Source: Candidatus Aenigmatarchaeota archaeon (GTDB lineage Archaea; Aenigmatarchaeota; Aenigmatarchaeia; QMZP01). From it: a DNA stretch of 64,000 nt. The position numbers and the translations under genes are program-made. Under the pieces are notes generated by a model. That model was not told where the DNA came from. It searched no databases and was given only the letters and a program-made list of their open reading frames with translations. The stretch lies in contig JACPNN010000015.1 of assembly GCA_016185435.1 (NCBI GenBank), positions 62,001 to 126,000 of the forward strand. The letters run 5' to 3'. This document shows positions 6,597 to 60,382 of this stretch, piece after piece (the stretch's first letter is position 1; every line of letters begins with the position of its first letter).

Positions 6597-6815
6597 TTGA
6601 GGAAGAAGAAATATGTCAGGGCATCTTATCTTTTCAGCTCCATGGCAGAGAGAGAAGGAAGCCAACTTAGCGATATAGATATAGCAGCCTTTATAGATGA
6701 CAAGCTTGGAAGAGCAGAAAGGAACAGAAGAAAGATTTTACTCATAAGTGCAATATCTTCTATTCTGAAAACCGATAGAATAGACCTTGTAATATATAAA
6801 GTTAACGATTGGTAA
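6597..6815 (+). pseudogene. minimal nucleotidyltransferase fragment
   Basis: 'YVRASYLFSSMAEREGSQLSDIDIAAFIDD'; no good start; C-terminus ends inside a 30-bp repeat shared with 10461-10490. Confidence 0.65.
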
Positions 6816-6820
6816 CTTTA
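6791..6820 (+). repeat. 30-bp direct repeat copy A (taatatataaagttaacgattggtaacttt)
   Basis: Identical to 10461-10490. Confidence 0.9.
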
Positions 6821-7002
6821 GCTTAAAATCAAGTACAAGATTACAATCTAATAAATAATCTGGACTTCCCAATCCCAAACAAAAACGGGTCGGTGTCTGT
6901 TATCAGTATCAAGCGACCATATAGCCACACCGCCGCTGACAGAAATGGGTTGTTTGATTTCTGGGCTATTTTGTTGTTTCACTATAACCCAAATGATAAT
7001 AA

Positions 7003-9189: not shown

Positions 9190-9399
9190 TCATTTCTCTG
9201 TCTTCGTAAGAAGTTCAGCATCCTCTTCCCCCTTTTTAACCAGCTTATAAACCTTCTCCCTCTTCATATCATTGTGACAATGGATAACAAATCGGAACTA
9301 CTGTTCGTTTCATACCATCTCTCACCTCGACGTCCTATGCAAGAGGCTATAGTATGTAGTTTTGTTTCGTAATCAATGCACTCGGAGATTGTTAATATA

Positions 9400-9476
9400 T
9401 CATCCCTTCACATTCCCGATCGGCTTGAAACCGACGACAGGCTTTGAAATTCCAGCCGCAGCCACGGAATCAATCA
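9400..9476 (-). repeat. duplicated 3' end of rtcB (77 bp)
   Basis: 74/77 identical to 10535-10611; the three differences are synonymous in the rtcB frame. Confidence 0.93.
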
Positions 9477-9866
9477 TCCCAGAAAAGCCTTAACATAGGC
9501 CAAGAACCTTTCTGCATCAAGCTTGGCCTGCTGGGCATCTTTTTCCTTCAGCTGCCTGTCCCCATACTCCGCATCTGTTTTTGTTTGAATGAGTGTGAAC
9601 AATCTCTGGCAAGCTTTTCTGTGCTCTTCGTTTTGGAGAAGGCCGCTGAAAAATTCGGCTGCCTCCCTGTGGTCCTGTCCTTTGTATCTCTGGGCCTTCA
9701 TTTGGATGCAGAAGGCATCCTGGGCTGAAATGGCACAATGGACAGCATTCCCGACACAGGCATCCCAGTCTCCATTCTTAAAGGATGCCTCAGAAGATCT
9801 CGAATATTGTTCTGCTCTGACAAGATAGATCCCTTTCCCTTTCCATCTGTCTACGGTTACTATCAT
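9474..9866 (-). CDS. HEPN-domain protein (putative toxin partner)
   Basis: HEPN-like helical pattern '...AVHCAISAQDAFCIQ...AEYGDRQLKEKDAQQAKLDAERFLAYVK'; overlaps NTase gene. Confidence 0.7.
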   Translation of the reverse strand: MIVTVDRWKGKGIYLVRAEQYSRSSEASFKNGDWDACVGNAVHCAISAQDAFCIQMKAQRYKGQDHREAAEFFSGLLQNEEHRKACQRLFTLIQTKTDAEYGDRQLKEKDAQQAKLDAERFLAYVKAFLG

Positions 9867-10441
9867 CTGATCACAATCCCGCGTTTAATATTCTCAGACA
9901 ACTGCCGGTTTCTTTTAGCATCTGCTTCTGTCATAATGTGGGGGTGGATTGAGTTGCCATACCTTTCCTTGTAAAATTCAGCCACTTCAAGCACCCTTTT
10001 CATGGCATGCTGCTTGTGTTCATGCCTCCCCACAAGGAGGAAAAGGTCTATGTCCGATGATTCCTTTTCCTTTCCGTCAGCAATGGAGCCAAAAAGGACA
10101 ACCTTCTTTATGTACGTGTATGCCTCTCCGAAATCTGCCTCCAGCCGTTGTTTCAAATCGATAAGAGGCGGTGTTTTCGCCAGATACTCAAGGCTGCAGG
10201 CCGAAAAGGCATAGCTTTTTTCATTGAGTGACCATACATGGACATTGCCTATTTTCGTCTTCCTCAGGAAGTTGACAGTTTCGATGTCCTTCAGGGCTTT
10301 GCCTACGGCCACATGTGACAGGCCCACAGACTTGGCCAATTCCCTTTCCCCTGAGGGTCCGGCGCCTGATAGCATATGCAAGGCAATTCTCAGCTTGGTT
10401 TTGGATCCAAGCAGCCTGAAGGCAAAATCATGGAATATCAT
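9863..10441 (-). CDS. winged-HTH nucleotidyltransferase
   Basis: N-terminal HTH; 'VVLFGSIADGKEKESSDIDLFLLV'. Confidence 0.82.
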   Translation of the reverse strand: MIFHDFAFRLLGSKTKLRIALHMLSGAGPSGERELAKSVGLSHVAVGKALKDIETVNFLRKTKIGNVHVWSLNEKSYAFSACSLEYLAKTPPLIDLKQRLEADFGEAYTYIKKVVLFGSIADGKEKESSDIDLFLLVGRHEHKQHAMKRVLEVAEFYKERYGNSIHPHIMTEADAKRNRQLSENIKRGIVIR

Positions 10442-10444
10442 ATT

Positions 10445-10490
10445 AAAGTTAACGATTGGTAATATATAAAGTTAACGATTGGTAACTTTC
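10445..10490 (-). promoter_or_regulatory. tandem operator-like repeats upstream of HTH-NTase/HEPN operon
   Basis: Two copies of ttaccaatcgttaacttt 23 bp apart with TATA-like 'tttatatatt' between them, immediately 5' of the ATG. Confidence 0.6.
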
Positions 10491-10534
10491 GTTTACAGTC
10501 TATGTTCTCGTACTGCCAGCAGGCTTTGGAGAAA

Positions 10535-12019
10535 TCATCCCTTCACATTCCCAATCGGCTTGAAACCGACGACAGGCTTTGAGATTCCAGCCGCAGCCAC
10601 AGAATCAATCACCTCATTGATGTCCTTGTAGGCCATCCCTGCCTCTTCAGCTAAACCTGACATGCTTACGGCCTTGACATATATGCCTCTGTCTTCCATG
10701 TTTTTCTGCAAAAGGTCTCCTCTTACTCTTCTCTTGGCCTCTGTCCTTGACATCGTCCTGCCTGAGCCGTGGGCTGTAGAGCCGAATGTCTCCTCCTCGG
10801 CCTTCTTGGTCCCTACAAGCAAATAGCTGCCTGTCTCCATGCTTCCGCCAATAATTACGGGCTGGCCTGTGTCCTGGAATATCGGAGCCAGTTCGGGATG
10901 GCCCGGGCCAAAGCTTCTGGTGGAGCCTTTCCTGTGGACAATCACTTTCTTTCTTTCGCCATTCACTTTATGCTCCTCTATTTTCGCTATGTTGTGGGCC
11001 ACATCATAAACGATATGCATCTCCATGTCTTCTGGAGTCCGATTGAAAATCTTCTGGAAGCCTTCCCTTATCCTGTGGACAATGACCTGCCTGTTGGCGA
11101 AGGCCATATTGGCCGCGCAGGCCATGGCCTCATAGTAGTCCTTGGCCTCTTTTGTGGAATAAGGAGCACAGGCCAGCTCCCTGTCCCTCACCTTCAGGTT
11201 GTGCCTTCTCATCACATCCTCAAAAATTCTGAGGTAATCCGTGCCTATCTGGTGGCCGAACCCTCTTGAGCCGCAGTGGACCATGATCACAATTTGATTG
11301 GGAAATATTCCGAACTTTTTGGCTATCTCAGGGTCGTGTATCCTTTCAGGAAGCACATGCTGTATCTCAAGATAATGGTTCCCTGAGCCCAAAGTCCCTA
11401 TCTGGTTTATCCCTCTCTGCTCGGCCTTGTCAGAGACCTTATCGGGATTGGCTCCCTTGATCACTCCGTATTCCTCAACCCTTTTTATGTCTTCTTCCCA
11501 GCCATAGCCGTTCTCGACGCACCACTTGACCCCTGTGGTCATCACTTCCTCGAACTGGCCCCTGCTTGCGTTCACAAAGCCTTTCACGCCGACTCCGGCA
11601 GGGACTGTCCTGAAAAAGGTATCCACAAGCTGCCTTAATTTGGGCCTGACTTCATCATAAGTCAGATTGGTTGTGATCAGCCTCATGCCGCAATTGATAT
11701 CGAAACCGATCCCTCCAGGGCTTATCACTCCTTCCTCAAGGTCGAAGGCCGCAACGCCGCCTATCGGAAAACCGTAGCCCCATTAGCCTTTCTGGAATAC
11801 TGTTCCAGAGATATGGCCGTCGGGCATACAGAAGGCGTGTTTTTGTATCCCCGGCAAAGAGGCCACATTGGTGACCTGCTCTATAACCCCAGGGTCCATA
11901 GCATTCACGAGCTTGTCCTTCCCGTATATCCTTGCAGTCACAAGCATGCCGGGCTTGTAACTAGTGGGGATTTCCCAGACCGCTTCTGACACCTGTTTTG
12001 ATTCTTTTGGCAATGGCAT
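10535..12019 (-). CDS. rtcB: RNA-splicing ligase RtcB, interrupted by a predicted 30-nt BHB intron (exon 1 12019..11813, exon 2 11782..10535)
   Basis: 'AFCMPDGH' + 'WGYGFPIGGVAAFDLEEGVISPGGIGFDINCGMR' RtcB signature once 11783-11812 is removed; SD-like aaggaggt upstream of ATG at 12019. Confidence 0.9.
11783..11812 (-). other. predicted 30-nt bulge-helix-bulge (archaeal) intron in rtcB
   Basis: ATCTCTGGAACAGTATTCCAGAAAGGCTAA; inner stem TCTGGAA/TTCCAGA, 4-bp central helix GGCC/GGCU, 3-nt bulges AUA and AAU; cuts after bulge nt 2 give GGCCAU/UGGGGC = GH-WG. Confidence 0.85.
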
Positions 12020-12831
12020 AGTACCTCCTTTTTTATAGTCATGCAATAATATTTGGACTCATTACCATTAATCCATGGGCCGTGGATATTACTATTAATG
12101 CCGAATCTATTTAAAGCCCCTTTAAGGCGCAACAGATTCCTCTTTTTTATGGTGTTGAGTCTGATTTCGTTTCTTCCCGCACGCAATCTGCCCCTATATA
12201 TAACAAAGCGCTGCAAATCGTCTATTGTCTCCGGAATTTTCCAGTTATAATCGACATAGGAGTTAATGGCTTTTTCGAGCAGAACATGTTTATCAGGATG
12301 GAGGAAACCTATGTGTTTTTTGAAATTTTTGAGGTTTTCCAATCCGCATATATTGAGCCTTACCAGCCTGTTTTTCCTCTTTTTTATCGAGCCTCTTATA
12401 GAAAATGTTTCAAGTGCATTTTTTATTTGGTATGTCCCTCTGACATTTTTACAATCGAATCTTATAGTTCTGCTTTTCGCTTTCTGGCATTCAACCCATG
12501 CCTCACAGTCGAAGAAAGATCTCAGCCAAACTTTCATATTTTTCATGGAAAGAGATGGAAGCTCCCATATGTCTGTATAATATGAAAAATCCTTGGCCAA
12601 TATGAAGTAGATCGCCTTTGACTGTATTCTGCATCTTCTTTCTCTGGTGATATGCGGCATTATTCTGAATCGGCTGTAGAATCTGGCTTGAAAATCCTTA
12701 AGCAGCTTCATGTTTGTATTTCTCAATCCTATATGATAGTACTTATGCTTCTGCTTTTGAGGGTTCTTAATGACATATCCGTCAGCACACAAATAGCCAT
12801 GAATAGCAGCCAAATCAGAATCGAATTTCAT
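11938..12831 (-). CDS. LAGLIDADG-type homing endonuclease
   Basis: 'DLAAIHGYLCADGYVIK' and 'LRSFFDCEAWVE' motifs; ORF end overlaps rtcB start. Confidence 0.8.
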   Translation of the reverse strand: MKFDSDLAAIHGYLCADGYVIKNPQKQKHKYYHIGLRNTNMKLLKDFQARFYSRFRIMPHITRERRCRIQSKAIYFILAKDFSYYTDIWELPSLSMKNMKVWLRSFFDCEAWVECQKAKSRTIRFDCKNVRGTYQIKNALETFSIRGSIKKRKNRLVRLNICGLENLKNFKKHIGFLHPDKHVLLEKAINSYVDYNWKIPETIDDLQRFVIYRGRLRAGRNEIRLNTIKKRNLLRLKGALNRFGINSNIHGPWINGNESKYYCMTIKKEVLCHCQKNQNRCQKRSGKSPLVTSPACL

Positions 12832-37752: not shown

Positions 37753-38172
37753 TCATTCCCCAACTACCTGAAGTATAATTTCCCTTTTCCTTGCAGGCAC
37801 ATCAAAATCCAGCAAAACTATCTGCTGCCATGTTCCAAGAAGCAGCTTCTTGTCCTTGAAAGGCACAGTGAGACTTGGGCCCATCAGGCTTGCCCTGACA
37901 TGGCTGTGGCCGTTCCTGTCGCCCCATGTCCTGTGATGCAAGTATTCAGCATCCGAAGGCGCTATCTTTTCCATTATTCTTTCAAAATCTTTCAGGAGAT
38001 TGGGCTCGTATTCTATAGTGGAAACACTTCCGGTTGAGCCTGGAACAAAAATGGTGACGATCCCTGAACTTATCTTCCCATTTTCCAGCCTTTCTTCTAT
38101 CAGAGAGGTTATGTCCTGCATGTCCAGACCGGACTTTGTGCTGACTCTTATCGTGTGGGTTTCGACTGGCAT
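37753..38172 (-). CDS. YjbQ/UPF0047 family protein
   Basis: 'SSGIVTIFVPGSTGSVSTIEYEP...YLHHRTWGDRNGHSHVRASLMGPSLTVPF...LLLGTWQQIVLLDFD'. Confidence 0.9.
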   Translation of the reverse strand: MPVETHTIRVSTKSGLDMQDITSLIEERLENGKISSGIVTIFVPGSTGSVSTIEYEPNLLKDFERIMEKIAPSDAEYLHHRTWGDRNGHSHVRASLMGPSLTVPFKDKKLLLGTWQQIVLLDFDVPARKREIILQVVGE

Positions 38173-38214
38173 GTTGCAGTGTTTGTTTTCCGGATTAAAA
38201 TAAGTGCCATGGCC
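38090..38214 (-). repeat. 125-bp direct repeat, copy 1 (5' end and leader of yjbQ)
   Basis: 123/125 identical to 39092-39216. Confidence 0.95.
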
Positions 38215-38279
38215 GTAAAGTAAGGTTCCTAACGTGACACTTGATGGTGCAGCATGCGGATAACTCATTCTCTGTCAGC

Positions 38280-38448
38280 GGTTGGAATTCCCTCCATCTT
38301 TCCTGTTGATCATGGCCTTCTGCTGCTCGCTCCAATCCCTGTCGGAATGGGATTTGATGTACTCGACCCACGAATCGATGAACTTCAGCCTCTCCTCAAA
38401 GTTCCTTTTCTTGTCCTCCTCCAGCTCTTTCAGGTTGATTTTCATAAA
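38280..38448 (-). CDS. small partner ORF of NTase module
   Basis: MKINLKELEEDKKRNFEERLKFIDSWVEYIKSHSDRDWSEQQKAMINRKDGGNSNR; resembles the 59493 ORF. Confidence 0.6.
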
Positions 38449-39029
38449 AGATACTTCTCATACAGGCTTAAAACCTTCAGATTTTTCGCAAAATGCTCCA
38501 GATTGCCTATGTCGAGGCGATCCTGGAACAGCTTGTAAAGGAATCTAGCATCCTCTATGTCCTTTTCGCTTGAAAGGAAAAGCTTGAATGCGATACCGAG
38601 CTCCAGCGGCCCTATGAGCAGTTTGCCAGACTTCATGAGAACTGTGATCCTGTTTTGCAGGCTGTAAAAATCCGTGTCCCTTTTCGGCATCTTGATCTCG
38701 AAGTTCGGCAGCCATTGATTCTTCCTTGCTATCCTGATCGCCAAGCCATCCTTGATCATGGAATGCGCATCCTTGGAATTGTCATGGTTCAGTATCCAAT
38801 AGCCTTTTTCATGTATTTCCCTGTAGAACTTCTCAAAATCCTGAAAGCCTTCAACAAAAACATCAATGTCCTCGCTCGCCCTGTTCCTTCCGAAAAGAAT
38901 GGCCACATAGCCGCTGATTATGACGTGTTTTGTGTGCTTTTCAATAATCGTTGAGAAATCAACAGCGAACCTGTCCAGGTCATTTTCTGCTTTATCCAGC
39001 CTTATGGTTTTGCTGTTAATGAATTCCAT
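38442..39029 (-). CDS. nucleotidyltransferase-like protein
   Basis: 'HVIISGYVAILFGRNRASEDIDVFVEGF...KDIEDARFLYKLF'. Confidence 0.75.
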   Translation of the reverse strand: MEFINSKTIRLDKAENDLDRFAVDFSTIIEKHTKHVIISGYVAILFGRNRASEDIDVFVEGFQDFEKFYREIHEKGYWILNHDNSKDAHSMIKDGLAIRIARKNQWLPNFEIKMPKRDTDFYSLQNRITVLMKSGKLLIGPLELGIAFKLFLSSEKDIEDARFLYKLFQDRLDIGNLEHFAKNLKVLSLYEKYLL

Positions 39030-39091
39030 ATTGACTGGATGGTTTTGGGGTTAAAATAGTGATATGCAGGACAGCAAATTATCCTTTAAGT

Positions 39092-39216
39092 CTTTCTTCT
39101 ATCAGAGAGGTTATGTCCTGCATGTCCAGATCGGGCTTTGTGCTGACTCTTATCGTGTGGGTTTCGACTGGCATGTTGCAGTGTTTGTTTTCCGGATTAA
39201 AATAAGTGCCATGGCC
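39092..39216 (-). repeat. 125-bp direct repeat, copy 2 (orphan yjbQ 5' end)
   Basis: Two mismatches to 38090-38214; reads MPVETHTIRVSTKPDLDMQDITSLIEER then stops resembling yjbQ. Confidence 0.95.
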
Positions 39217-39257: not shown

Positions 39258-41081
39258 TTATCCCGAATCCTCTTCCAACCCTTCCCCAGCAATCTCCACT
39301 TCCTCTATCCTTCTCTTCCTGAGGTACACAAAGCCGAAGATGAGCAGCAGTATGAGCACCCCAAGCACAAGCAGAAGCAGGGATATGGCAATCAGATTGT
39401 CCCCGAGGCCTATAAGGCCTGTCGCTATGCCCGCCTGCTGGGCCTGTGGAGACACGAATATGGAGACTGTCTCGTCCATCTGCCTGCTGTCCTCGCTTCT
39501 TACTGTTATCTTTATGTTGTAATTTCCCGGCTCCTTTCCGGTCACATACAGGAAGGAATCCTTCTTGCCCGAGAACGTCTCAACCGTGTTGTAGCCGAGC
39601 CAGTCTGAAGGAACTCCAGATGCTGAGATTGTGAACTTCATGGCCGCTGCAGAAGGCGATGTTATCGAGATGACAAACACCCCGCTCTTGCCTATAGGAA
39701 TGGCCTGCGTCTTTGGGGAGACTTCCACTCTGAAGTCAGACGGCTGGAGTTTTGGCTGGATATCTGACGGGAAGTAAGGCTCAGAGACCTGGATGCCCTT
39801 GGACAATGTGGTCACTGTGGCCCTTATGGAATCTCTTGCTCCGCATCCTGAATCGGCCTCAAACCTTATCTCATGGCTTCCTGCCGCTGGAATGAAATTG
39901 AATGATTTTTCGTCCTCCTGCCCGCTTGCCATCGTTGCTGTGAGAGTGCCTTTGATGGCATTATCCAGATAAAACCTGAGGTTGATTGTCTGCCTGCTCC
40001 CTGAATTCATGAGCTTCACTTTCGCATAGGCCTTCTCCCCTTCCATGCTGTTCCTCGTGTAGTCGAGGGATGAGAGTGTTACAGAACAGATGCCTGGCCT
40101 TACCCTGATTGTCCTGCTTTCGGAATCAGAAAGGCTGTCATCGTCAGTGACTCTCAGAGATATGGTGAACGTGCCTTCCCTTGAATAGGAATGCGAAGGG
40201 TTCCTGTCTGTGCTTATCTGGCCGTCGCCAAAGTCCCATCTCCACCTGTCTATTCTTCCGTCGCTGTCAGTTGAGTAATCAGTAAACCTTACTATCTCTT
40301 CAACCTCGGCCTCACTTGGATAGAATGTGAAGCTTGCGAAAGGCTCATCCTGCCTTGACCTCCCGTTTCCAACCGCAATGTCCCGTGTCTGGCTTGTGGT
40401 CAGGCCGTCATTATCAGTTATAGTGAGCGTGACGCTATATGTCCTTCTTGCGTCAAATGTGTGGAACACCCTTGTGCTGGATGTGGTCTTTGAAGTTCCG
40501 TCATCATACCTCCATCTGTATTCCACAATCCTGCCATCAGGGTCATAGCTTGAGGAGGCATCGAATTCAATCTCCTCATTTATCCTCGGGTTTGAAGGGT
40601 AGAAGCTGAATTCAGCGACAGGCCTAGTCTGCCCGCTGCCAACTGTTATAGTCCTTGTTGTTGAGGCCTGAAGGCCAAGGTTATCAGTAACCCTTAATGT
40701 GATTGTGAATGTTCCGCTCCTGCCGTACATGTGTGAGGTGCCCTGGCCATATGTTGTCACGCCGTCCCCGAAGTCCCAGAACCATTCCCTTATGTATCCG
40801 TCAGAATCTGAAGACCTGTCAGTGAAATAGACGACATCCCCAACTTTGGGGCTGATGGGACTGAATGTGAAATCAGCTATAGGGGGCCTGTTTGCCGGCG
40901 TCGGAGTAGGCGTCGGATTGGGGCAGCAGACTGGTGTCGGAGTAGGATTTGTGTACGGGCATGTGCTGCCGAAAAGTGTATGCGCTGTGACTGTTTGAGG
41001 GGCAAAGATAGCTGATGCTATCAGAAGCAATACGGCTAAATATATCATTTTCAGACTTTTCATACCACTAATAAGTGGCAA
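39258..41081 (-). CDS. secreted PKD-repeat protein with C-terminal TM
   Basis: Three PKD-like repeats ('WFWDFGDG', 'WRYDDGT', 'WRWDFGDG'), C-terminal hydrophobic anchor. Confidence 0.88.
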   Translation of the reverse strand: MPLISGMKSLKMIYLAVLLLIASAIFAPQTVTAHTLFGSTCPYTNPTPTPVCCPNPTPTPTPANRPPIADFTFSPISPKVGDVVYFTDRSSDSDGYIREWFWDFGDGVTTYGQGTSHMYGRSGTFTITLRVTDNLGLQASTTRTITVGSGQTRPVAEFSFYPSNPRINEEIEFDASSSYDPDGRIVEYRWRYDDGTSKTTSSTRVFHTFDARRTYSVTLTITDNDGLTTSQTRDIAVGNGRSRQDEPFASFTFYPSEAEVEEIVRFTDYSTDSDGRIDRWRWDFGDGQISTDRNPSHSYSREGTFTISLRVTDDDSLSDSESRTIRVRPGICSVTLSSLDYTRNSMEGEKAYAKVKLMNSGSRQTINLRFYLDNAIKGTLTATMASGQEDEKSFNFIPAAGSHEIRFEADSGCGARDSIRATVTTLSKGIQVSEPYFPSDIQPKLQPSDFRVEVSPKTQAIPIGKSGVFVISITSPSAAAMKFTISASGVPSDWLGYNTVETFSGKKDSFLYVTGKEPGNYNIKITVRSEDSRQMDETVSIFVSPQAQQAGIATGLIGLGDNLIAISLLLLVLGVLILLLIFGFVYLRKRRIEEVEIAGEGLEEDSG

Positions 41082-46950: not shown

Positions 46951-47098
46951 TACTGAAACTAAAATCAGTACTTCAAAATAACCCCTTAACCTTTTGGAAA
47001 CTCAGTATACCAGCAACCAGATAACGATAAAGCTTCTGGCTCTATTGTTCAGTGAAATGAGACATAAGGTTTAAATAAATAGACCATATTATATTTTA

Positions 47099-47629
47099 TT
47101 GATACTCATGGTCCAACTGCATAAACTTTTGGGCAGCAGAGTGGCCATCAAAATCCTAGCCTTTTTGCTGAAAAATTCCTCTGCCGAGTTCAGCCAGACA
47201 GCGGTCAGGAAGGAACTGAAGATTGCCAAACTTTCAGCCAGCAGATGGCTGGAATTCATGGAGGAAAATGGAATAGTGAAGAAAAGCGCAGCAGGCAGGA
47301 CTCTCCTCTACAGGCTGTCTAGAGACAATATTATAGCCAAGCAGCTGAAGATCCTTTTCATCCTTTCGGATCTGGAAGACAAAATAGGCAATCTGCAAAC
47401 AGAGGCGCAAATCTACCTTTTCGGCTCGGCCTCACGCGGCGAGGACACAGAGCAGTCGGATATAGATCTGCTTGTCATCGGAACAGACAGGAGTCTGGCA
47501 GCAAGACTGAAGGCTCTGGACACAAGGATAAAAGTCAGCTTCTTCACGCCTGTGGAATGGCTCAGGATGTCAAAGGAAGACAGGGCTTTTTACGAAAGGG
47601 TGGAGAAGGACAGAATCAGGCTGGTTTAG
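47099..47629 (+). CDS. HTH nucleotidyltransferase
   Basis: N-terminal wHTH and 'IYLFGSASRGEDTEQSDIDLLVIG'. Confidence 0.82.
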   Translation: MILMVQLHKLLGSRVAIKILAFLLKNSSAEFSQTAVRKELKIAKLSASRWLEFMEENGIVKKSAAGRTLLYRLSRDNIIAKQLKILFILSDLEDKIGNLQTEAQIYLFGSASRGEDTEQSDIDLLVIGTDRSLAARLKALDTRIKVSFFTPVEWLRMSKEDRAFYERVEKDRIRLV

Positions 47630-47706
47630 CATGGACATGGAAGAGTGCATACAAAAAGGCTATCTGAAGCGCACGCAACCGTGACCAGGAGCTGGCCAGG
47701 AAGGAA

Positions 47707-48054
47707 ATGAAGGAATCTGCCTATGATATGCTTGCTGCACGCGAAGCCTGCATGAAAGCCGATTACAAGTGGTGCATTATCAAGAGCTACTATGCCATGT
47801 TCCATGCAGCTAAAGCTCTTCTGTTTTCTCTTGGTTTCAAGGAGCGGCGGCATTTTGCCATTGCCGCCGTGCTGGAGGACCTGTATAAGAACGGCAGGCT
47901 GGAAAGCAAATATATCGAGCAGTTCGCTTCAGCAATGAGTTCTAGGGAGGATGCCGATTATCGCTATACTTATTCGCATGAAACAGCCGAAATCATACTC
48001 GATGCTGCGGAGGAGTTTGCAGAGATGATGCGCAGAATGGCCAAAATGCGATGA
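47707..48054 (+). CDS. HEPN-domain protein
   Basis: 'KWCIIKSYYAMFHAAKALLFSLGFKERRHFAI'. Confidence 0.85.
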   Translation: MKESAYDMLAAREACMKADYKWCIIKSYYAMFHAAKALLFSLGFKERRHFAIAAVLEDLYKNGRLESKYIEQFASAMSSREDADYRYTYSHETAEIILDAAEEFAEMMRRMAKMR

Positions 48055-48097
48055 CTTCATAAATGAGACATCTTTTTATTTCGGTAGAAATAGCCCC

Positions 48098-48340
48098 TCA
48101 GCCCTTGAGGAACTCAGTATACCCGCATCTTCCGCAGTAGATCCTGTTCTTGTGGTCGGCAAGGAATGTCCCCGGCCCGCATCTGGGGCATGGCTTCTTC
48201 TTCCTCTGGACGCCTTTTGAGACGTCATAGAACTTGAATATCTTCACGCTCACATGCTTCCGGCCTTTCCTTATCTTCTTTCCCTTCCTCACTACCTTTT
48301 TTTCGGCCTTTGGCGCCGGTTTCTCGTCCCTGCCTCCCAT
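48098..48340 (-). CDS. rps27ae: ribosomal protein S27ae
   Basis: '[27 protein letters not shown]'. Confidence 0.92.
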
Positions 48341-59492: not shown

Positions 59493-59696
59493 TTATATTT
59501 CAGCTCTCCTCTTTCTCAGCAGCTCTATCTTTTTCCTCCCATCCTTCGTCTTTGCCAGCCTCTGGTAGAACCTGTTGGCCATTATTATCTGGGAATCTAC
59601 TAGTGCCTTGACCTGCGGCTTCCAGACACGCCTCGGATTGTCCCTGACATATCTGGCCCAGAACTCCACGAAATCCTCCCTTGATTTTATTTTCAT
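59493..59696 (-). CDS. small partner ORF of NTase module
   Basis: 'DFVEFWARYVRDNPRRVWKPQVKALVDSQI' parallels 38280 ORF. Confidence 0.65.
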   Translation of the reverse strand: MKIKSREDFVEFWARYVRDNPRRVWKPQVKALVDSQIIMANRFYQRLAKTKDGRKKIELLRKRRAEI

Positions 59697-60259
59697 TTCA
59701 GCCTGAGCCTCCTTATCTCCCCTTTGATTTTCTCTATCTCTTTTTCATCGGTTTTTCCCTCATAGATTATCCTGAGATGCCTTGCATCCTCGATGTCCTT
59801 TGGCGACTTGAGGAGCTCTTCCTTGAAGGCTATGTTCATCTCTACTGAGGAAAAATAAAAATCCATGTCGGTGAAAGGCAGCTTTTTCCTTGTCTCAAGC
59901 TGGTATTCATCAAGCTGATCTTTGGCCAGCTTCACCTCCATTTCAGGCAAAACAGACCCTTTTCTGAAGTATCTGATTGCCAGGCCTTTTGAGAGATATT
60001 CTGTATACAGTTTTTCCGGAGGCTCTGCCTGCACGCATTCGAAGTTTTCCTTCAAGAGATAAGCATGCAGTCTGGCGAATCTTTCTTTTGGCATCCTCTC
60101 CAGAATGACATCTATGTCCTCTGTCCCCCTGCTCCTTCCATGAGCTATTGCCACAAATCCGGATACTATGATATAAGTTATTTTTTGCCTGTCAAGAACT
60201 GAAACGAAGTCTTTTGCGAATGCCTCAAGGATTGTCCTGTCCATGATGCTTCTTTTCAT
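59693..60259 (-). CDS. nucleotidyltransferase-like protein
   Basis: 'YIIVSGFVAIAHGRSRGTEDIDVILERM...KDIEDARHLRIIY'. Confidence 0.78.
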   Translation of the reverse strand: MKRSIMDRTILEAFAKDFVSVLDRQKITYIIVSGFVAIAHGRSRGTEDIDVILERMPKERFARLHAYLLKENFECVQAEPPEKLYTEYLSKGLAIRYFRKGSVLPEMEVKLAKDQLDEYQLETRKKLPFTDMDFYFSSVEMNIAFKEELLKSPKDIEDARHLRIIYEGKTDEKEIEKIKGEIRRLRLK

Positions 60260-60382
60260 GGGAGAAGATTGGTTTTGGGAAATATATAGGAAAAGAAGAT
60301 TTCTTTCCTCCAATTTCACTTCCGCCTGTGAACACAGGAAAATATTTATACTGGCCGCCGCCATATAATATATCGTGATTGT

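Follow-up and report, generated by a model that had tools for sequence, protein, structure and literature searches.

Probable insertion with long target duplication of a predicted nucleotidyltransferase toxin-antitoxin pair at yjbQ in an uncultured archaeon

Toxin-antitoxin (TA) modules are patchy in their distribution and clearly mobile. For another class of genes, those of restriction-modification systems, Nobusato et al. 2000 and Furuta et al. 2010 reportedly observed insertion with long target duplication. Three papers describe this mode of insertion for bacterial restriction-modification genes (PMC3874152, PMC3031569, PMC1643837). How TA modules are fixed after horizontal acquisition is, according to a review, not understood (PMC2654758).

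Here we analyse the yjbQ locus in a 64,000-nucleotide stretch of archaeal DNA (the window). As in the restriction-modification cases, long and variable direct target repeats (order of 100 bp) flank an insert, and the cargo, which has no mobility gene, acts as an addiction unit, a property that is predicted for the present locus. The target repeat is 128 bp at yjbQ and 27-295 bp elsewhere, a variability of length typical of long target duplication. The differences lie in the TA-like cargo, in the uncultured archaeal host, in repeats that span gene starts or ends, and in the lack of a strain pair with an empty allele. Because of the other cargo, the other host and the missing empty allele, we regard the locus as a variant of the described pattern. 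No earlier report of long target duplication for TA modules was found in the open-licence literature. From the anatomy of the locus we infer, with a probability of about 0.75, that long target duplication accompanied the insertion into yjbQ of a foreign fragment carrying a predicted NTase toxin/antitoxin pair.

Repeat and gene order at yjbQ

The locus consists of a truncated yjbQ start, a nucleotidyltransferase (NTase) gene, a small partner gene and an intact yjbQ, in this order and all on the minus strand (Table 1). The two genes between the copies had been recognised in the preliminary description, as had a 125-bp repeat with two mismatches (KSG versus KPD). These values are true within the 125 bp; the full direct repeat is 128 bp long, its copies differ at three positions (38089, 38129 and 38133), and the pair scores 218 bits in BLAST, far above chance. 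The spacing of the copies is exactly 1002 bp, the size originally given for the unit. The ATG at 38172 is the start common to relatives, hence the repeat is made up of 42 bp of leader and the first 28 codons of yjbQ, in agreement with the earlier estimate. Within the insert, DNA similarity to relatives extends only from 38299 to 39042, which corresponds approximately to the two coding sequences. A search of the host genome for a second DNA copy of the cassette found none.

Table 1. Positions of features at the three bracketed loci of the window
Feature	Position	Strand	Remark
Duplicate of rtcB 3′ end	9399..9481	-	94% identical to 10534-10616
Cargo between rtcB repeats	9474..10441	-	HEPN 9474-9866, HTH-NTase 9863-10441
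rtcB 3′ end, intact copy	10534..10616	-	
yjbQ (UPF0047), intact	37753..38172	-	Start as in relatives
Repeat copy 1, in leader and start of intact yjbQ	38087..38214	-	
Inserted DNA	38215..39088		874 bp, ends without inverted repeats
Small partner, predicted antitoxin (P0002)	38275..38445	-	56 aa, WSxQQ motif, predicted two-helix hairpin
NTase, predicted MenT1/AbiEii-like toxin (P0001)	38442..39029	-	195 aa
Repeat copy 2, truncated yjbQ 5′ fragment	39089..39216	-	Adjoins original upstream context
Upstream neighbour, PKD-like repeat protein (by sequence)	39258..41081	-	607 aa, stop ~42 bp from repeat copy 2
40-bp repeat	46976..47015		80% identical to 48088-48127
Cargo of the probable third case	47099..48054	+	HTH-NTase 47099-47629 (NTP_transf_2, Pfam), HEPN-like 47707-48054 (HEPN by reading)
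Second 40-bp copy	48088..48127		At 3′ end of small zinc-ribbon gene resembling rps27ae (48098-48340, -)

Family relatives, none of them close, have yjbQ without the duplication. In these genomes we saw no second partial copy of yjbQ surrounding an NTase and the NTase homologs lie elsewhere, thus the arrangement is not one conserved across distant genomes. A truncated 5′ fragment could also be left if the yjbQ region had been duplicated in tandem while the NTase pair was already present, either between the copies or next to them, and one copy had since decayed. The repeat, however, ends sharply on both sides, the neighbouring genes are single, there is no wider duplicated segment, and a layout of this kind is found at many unrelated genes, which makes tandem duplication extremely improbable. 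The best reading, supported by these data, is that a two-gene NTase cassette was inserted at yjbQ, and rtcB is a second case. In the preliminary description the host gene was thought to have been preserved by a second copy of the gene end. One intact yjbQ and one truncated 5′ end were confirmed and insertion is supported, but the second copy is better explained as duplicated target DNA than as part of a defined element that brought the gene end with it.

The proposed parallel with rtcB holds: the 3′ end of this gene occurs twice, and a HEPN/HTH-NTase pair lies between the copies. The segment from 46976 to 48127 is a probable third case of bracketed TA-like cargo in the window.

The rtcB gene is interrupted at 11783-11812, between the segments encoding MPDGH and WGYGFPIGG, by about 30 nt that contain a stop codon and a 7-bp hairpin; this may be an intron or the scar of an intein site. 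A 297-aa ORF, possibly of homing-endonuclease type, lies just upstream (11938-12831, minus strand). The palindrome AAAGTTA-N8-TAACTTT is repeated upstream of the rtcB-linked HTH-NTase gene (10440-10500) and is found once (6789-6830) in a truncated NTase gene (6597-6815); it may be an operator.

The nucleotidyltransferase and its partner

The NTase had no Pfam or NCBIfam match, AbiEii included, over the curated cut-offs; DUF2204 was below the cut-off. In an alignment of 27 homologs residues G40, G47, R50, D54 and D56 were kept, as in nucleotidyltransferases. The structure model has a pLDDT of 96, and its best matches among solved structures (Foldseek) are MenT1 of M. tuberculosis with its antitoxin (8an5, 8an4), followed by MenT3/TglT, with E values from 8e-7 to 3e-4. 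MenT1 is weakly indicated by the sequence profile as well. In 71 of 78 archaeal loci the NTase adjoins a small W-S-x-Q-Q protein, compared with 7 of 342 control positions, and this defines the two genes as a widespread pair. The partner, modelled as a two-helix hairpin, matched neither solved structures nor HEPN.

These best fold matches and the small adjoining partner gene liken the pair to MenT1/MenA1 and to the AbiEii-type NTase toxins. It differs from them in sequence (~13% identity), in having no Pfam AbiEii match, and in a partner without a match among solved structures, and its activity is a prediction. HEPN-MNT (type VII) systems also combine a nucleotidyltransferase with a small partner, but no HEPN protein is present in the yjbQ pair, and the NTase there is of a different family; true HEPN-MNT pairs are the cargo of several other insertions in the host genome. 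The best prediction, based on the model and on the gene pairing, is that the NTase and its WSxQQ partner form a TA module, in which the NTase would be toxic, the partner would neutralise it, and the host would become addicted.

Relatives of the pair are present on haloarchaeal plasmids, annotated as hypothetical proteins, whereas viral or phage carriers of NTase relatives were not found. A strong repeat that tightly brackets the NTase was not seen in any of ten haloarchaeal-plasmid loci; at one plasmid locus (L320) a 64-bp, 78% repeat (2822-2881/3930-3992) spans the pair. The window encodes a second, distant NTase of the same family (59493-60364, 32% identity), with its own W-motif partner and no bracketing repeat found.

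Bracketed modules in the host genome and in other archaea

A search for direct repeats covered 1,345,701 of the 1,346,455 bases of the host genome (draft, 23 contigs). At least a dozen TA-like modules (HEPN-MNT, VapC/PIN, PemK, AbiE and the yjbQ-type NTase) lie between direct repeats of 27-295 bp, and these repeats are mostly host-gene starts or ends. The cargo with TA domains supported by Pfam includes HEPN and NTase genes at the 3′ end of a helicase gene, at rtcB and at an HTH gene, PIN genes at a gene start (tpiA) and at the 3′ end of a zinc-ribbon gene, PemK at the 3′ end of a gene for an ATP synthase subunit, and AbiEii; host genes other than yjbQ and rtcB were named by reading. Among genes of 60-350 aa, to which the count was limited, 12 of 43 PIN/NTase genes are bracketed in comparison with 55 of 940 other genes (p=1e-5), and the 55 include several partners of TA genes. 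The remaining 31 PIN/NTase genes have no bracket, which indicates either that insertion of this kind is one of several routes or that its traces fade.

Bracketed cargo without a recognised TA domain also occurs in the host genome. It includes a pilin-like gene and, at G000 C2:11355-12976, C14:1427-2900, C16:7758-8649 and C7:105683-107353, ATPases of the AAA type, a LAGLIDADG protein, and two small partners with a protein that reads as caspase-like. One relative used as a control (G020; 1.05 Mb in one contig, ~73% complete, TA content uncounted) has one comparable unit, and no recognised TA cargo is found among its bracketed units.

The draft state of the host genome, a metagenome-assembled one, could suggest that the repeats are assembly artefacts. 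We judge this very unlikely: the copies have diverged (79-100% identity across cases), they are concentrated around TA-like genes, and the pattern recurs in independent assemblies such as that of Ca. Methanoperedens nitroreducens (NZ_JMIY01000005).

In other archaea, the first chance estimate for repeats spanning the NTase was not significant (19 seen, ~13 expected). With tight bracketing, 9 of 80 NTase loci scored versus 8 of 545 shifted windows; this test was designed after the first estimate had been seen, and its p=6e-5 is somewhat optimistic. In Ca. Methanoperedens nitroreducens (L267) 162 bp at the 3′ end of an hsdS-like gene are repeated. At L244 two convergent genes, both intact, overlap at their 3′ ends, and these ends lie in an exact 35-bp repeat; the empty site had no close match in relatives, which are too distant. 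Relative G009 carries an AbiE pair at the opposite (3′) end of yjbQ, flanked by the copies of a 48-bp repeat of that gene end. At L061 the NTase pair lies between the 3′ parts (1257-1292, 2098-2133) of what by eye are two different tRNA-Thr genes, one apparently intact and with an intron; an ARAGORN scan of this locus found no tRNA.

Insert ends and the route of insertion

Twelve NTase cassettes were compared for terminal inverted repeats or shared ends, and nothing beyond shuffled expectation was detected. The common terminal sequences for which the preliminary description had proposed to look are thus lacking in the cassettes of the NTase family. DNA transposons and IS elements differ from these cassettes by having terminal inverted repeats and a short target duplication of fixed length; duplications in the NTase family range from 33 to 162 bp. 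Integrase-driven elements carry a recombinase gene and use a constant attachment core, whereas the yjbQ unit contains only the NTase and its partner, and target sequences differ within the family. An element of either kind with defined ends, moved in trans, would account for the small uniform unit (~0.8-1.0 kb) found in many genomes and for the L061 insertion at a tRNA gene 3′ end, a classic attachment site. In view of the cassette ends, the variable duplications and targets, the gene content of the unit and the arbitrary ends of one insert described below, such an element is very improbable.

The insert at an nrdD-like locus is 87.8% identical, over 1676 bp, to a sister copy elsewhere in the host genome. 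The sister copy lies directly upstream of an intact arcC, and the insert terminates within arcC, after ~44 codons. Because the insert carries the start of arcC, its ends are arbitrary and it is a captured fragment. The lack of common ends in the NTase cassettes fits the same interpretation, and the inserts in general look like arbitrary captured fragments. The 48-bp target repeat at the nrdD-like locus has one mismatch, whereas insert and sister copy differ by 12%; if rates are equal, this lower divergence of the repeat indicates that the resident copy was not the donor (p=0.015).

The same final structure would arise by single crossover, if the resident yjbQ had recombined with a circle that bore the NTase pair together with 128 bp of a related strain's yjbQ; the three differences between the copies over 128 bp are what two alleles might show. 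This would require a donor in which the pair was already in yjbQ, but in none of the relatives was that arrangement found, their NTase homologs being elsewhere. Moreover, the nrdD-like insert carries a piece of arcC and not of the target gene. We consider a single crossover unlikely.

Insertion of a fragment with long target duplication would start with a break, or with a template switch in replication or repair, ~28 codons into yjbQ, followed by a junction to a fragment of ~0.87 kb. The original locus would then be rejoined 128 bp upstream, or staggered ends of 128 bp would be filled in. The leader and gene start would be copied again, and one complete yjbQ would be left. Products of this kind would result from template switching as well as from filled staggered breaks. 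Ku and ComEC, sought as clues to the mechanism, were not found; with no Ku, classical end joining is unsupported. Selection would act twice: the host gene would survive only those insertions whose duplication reaches across a gene boundary, and recombination between the direct repeats would be free to remove the insert except where cells that lose it die, as expected of TA addiction. Addiction is probably a second filter, next to that for host-gene integrity. Enrichment of TA cargo would be its expected result; differential uptake would also do.

The dozen insertions whose duplications are still present in one genome provide datable footprints of TA-module fixation, and they make the addiction explanation testable. 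With them the range of long target duplication, described for restriction-modification genes of bacteria, widens to TA-like cargo in archaea, and they suggest a common spreading mode for such selfish pairs. It is a tentative proposal, to which we give somewhat less than an even chance, that fragment capture with target duplication at gene boundaries is a general entry route, free of mobility genes, for unrelated TA families into archaeal chromosomes, where addiction would retain them despite the direct repeats.

Some loci contain more than two repeat copies. At G000:C1:2208-5860 a 459-aa gene has its 3′ end repeated several times, with AbiE and aspartyl-protease-like pairs between the copies, an order that looks like successive insertion. 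At L206 (4862-6898) two different inserts, one encoding a 281-aa protein and the other the NTase pair, are kept apart by a 107-110 bp repeat present in three copies. Outside the window, at G000:C9:57093-57920, a triosephosphate isomerase-like gene appears to be circularly permuted: the LALNWKAY region, normally N-terminal, is at its C terminus.
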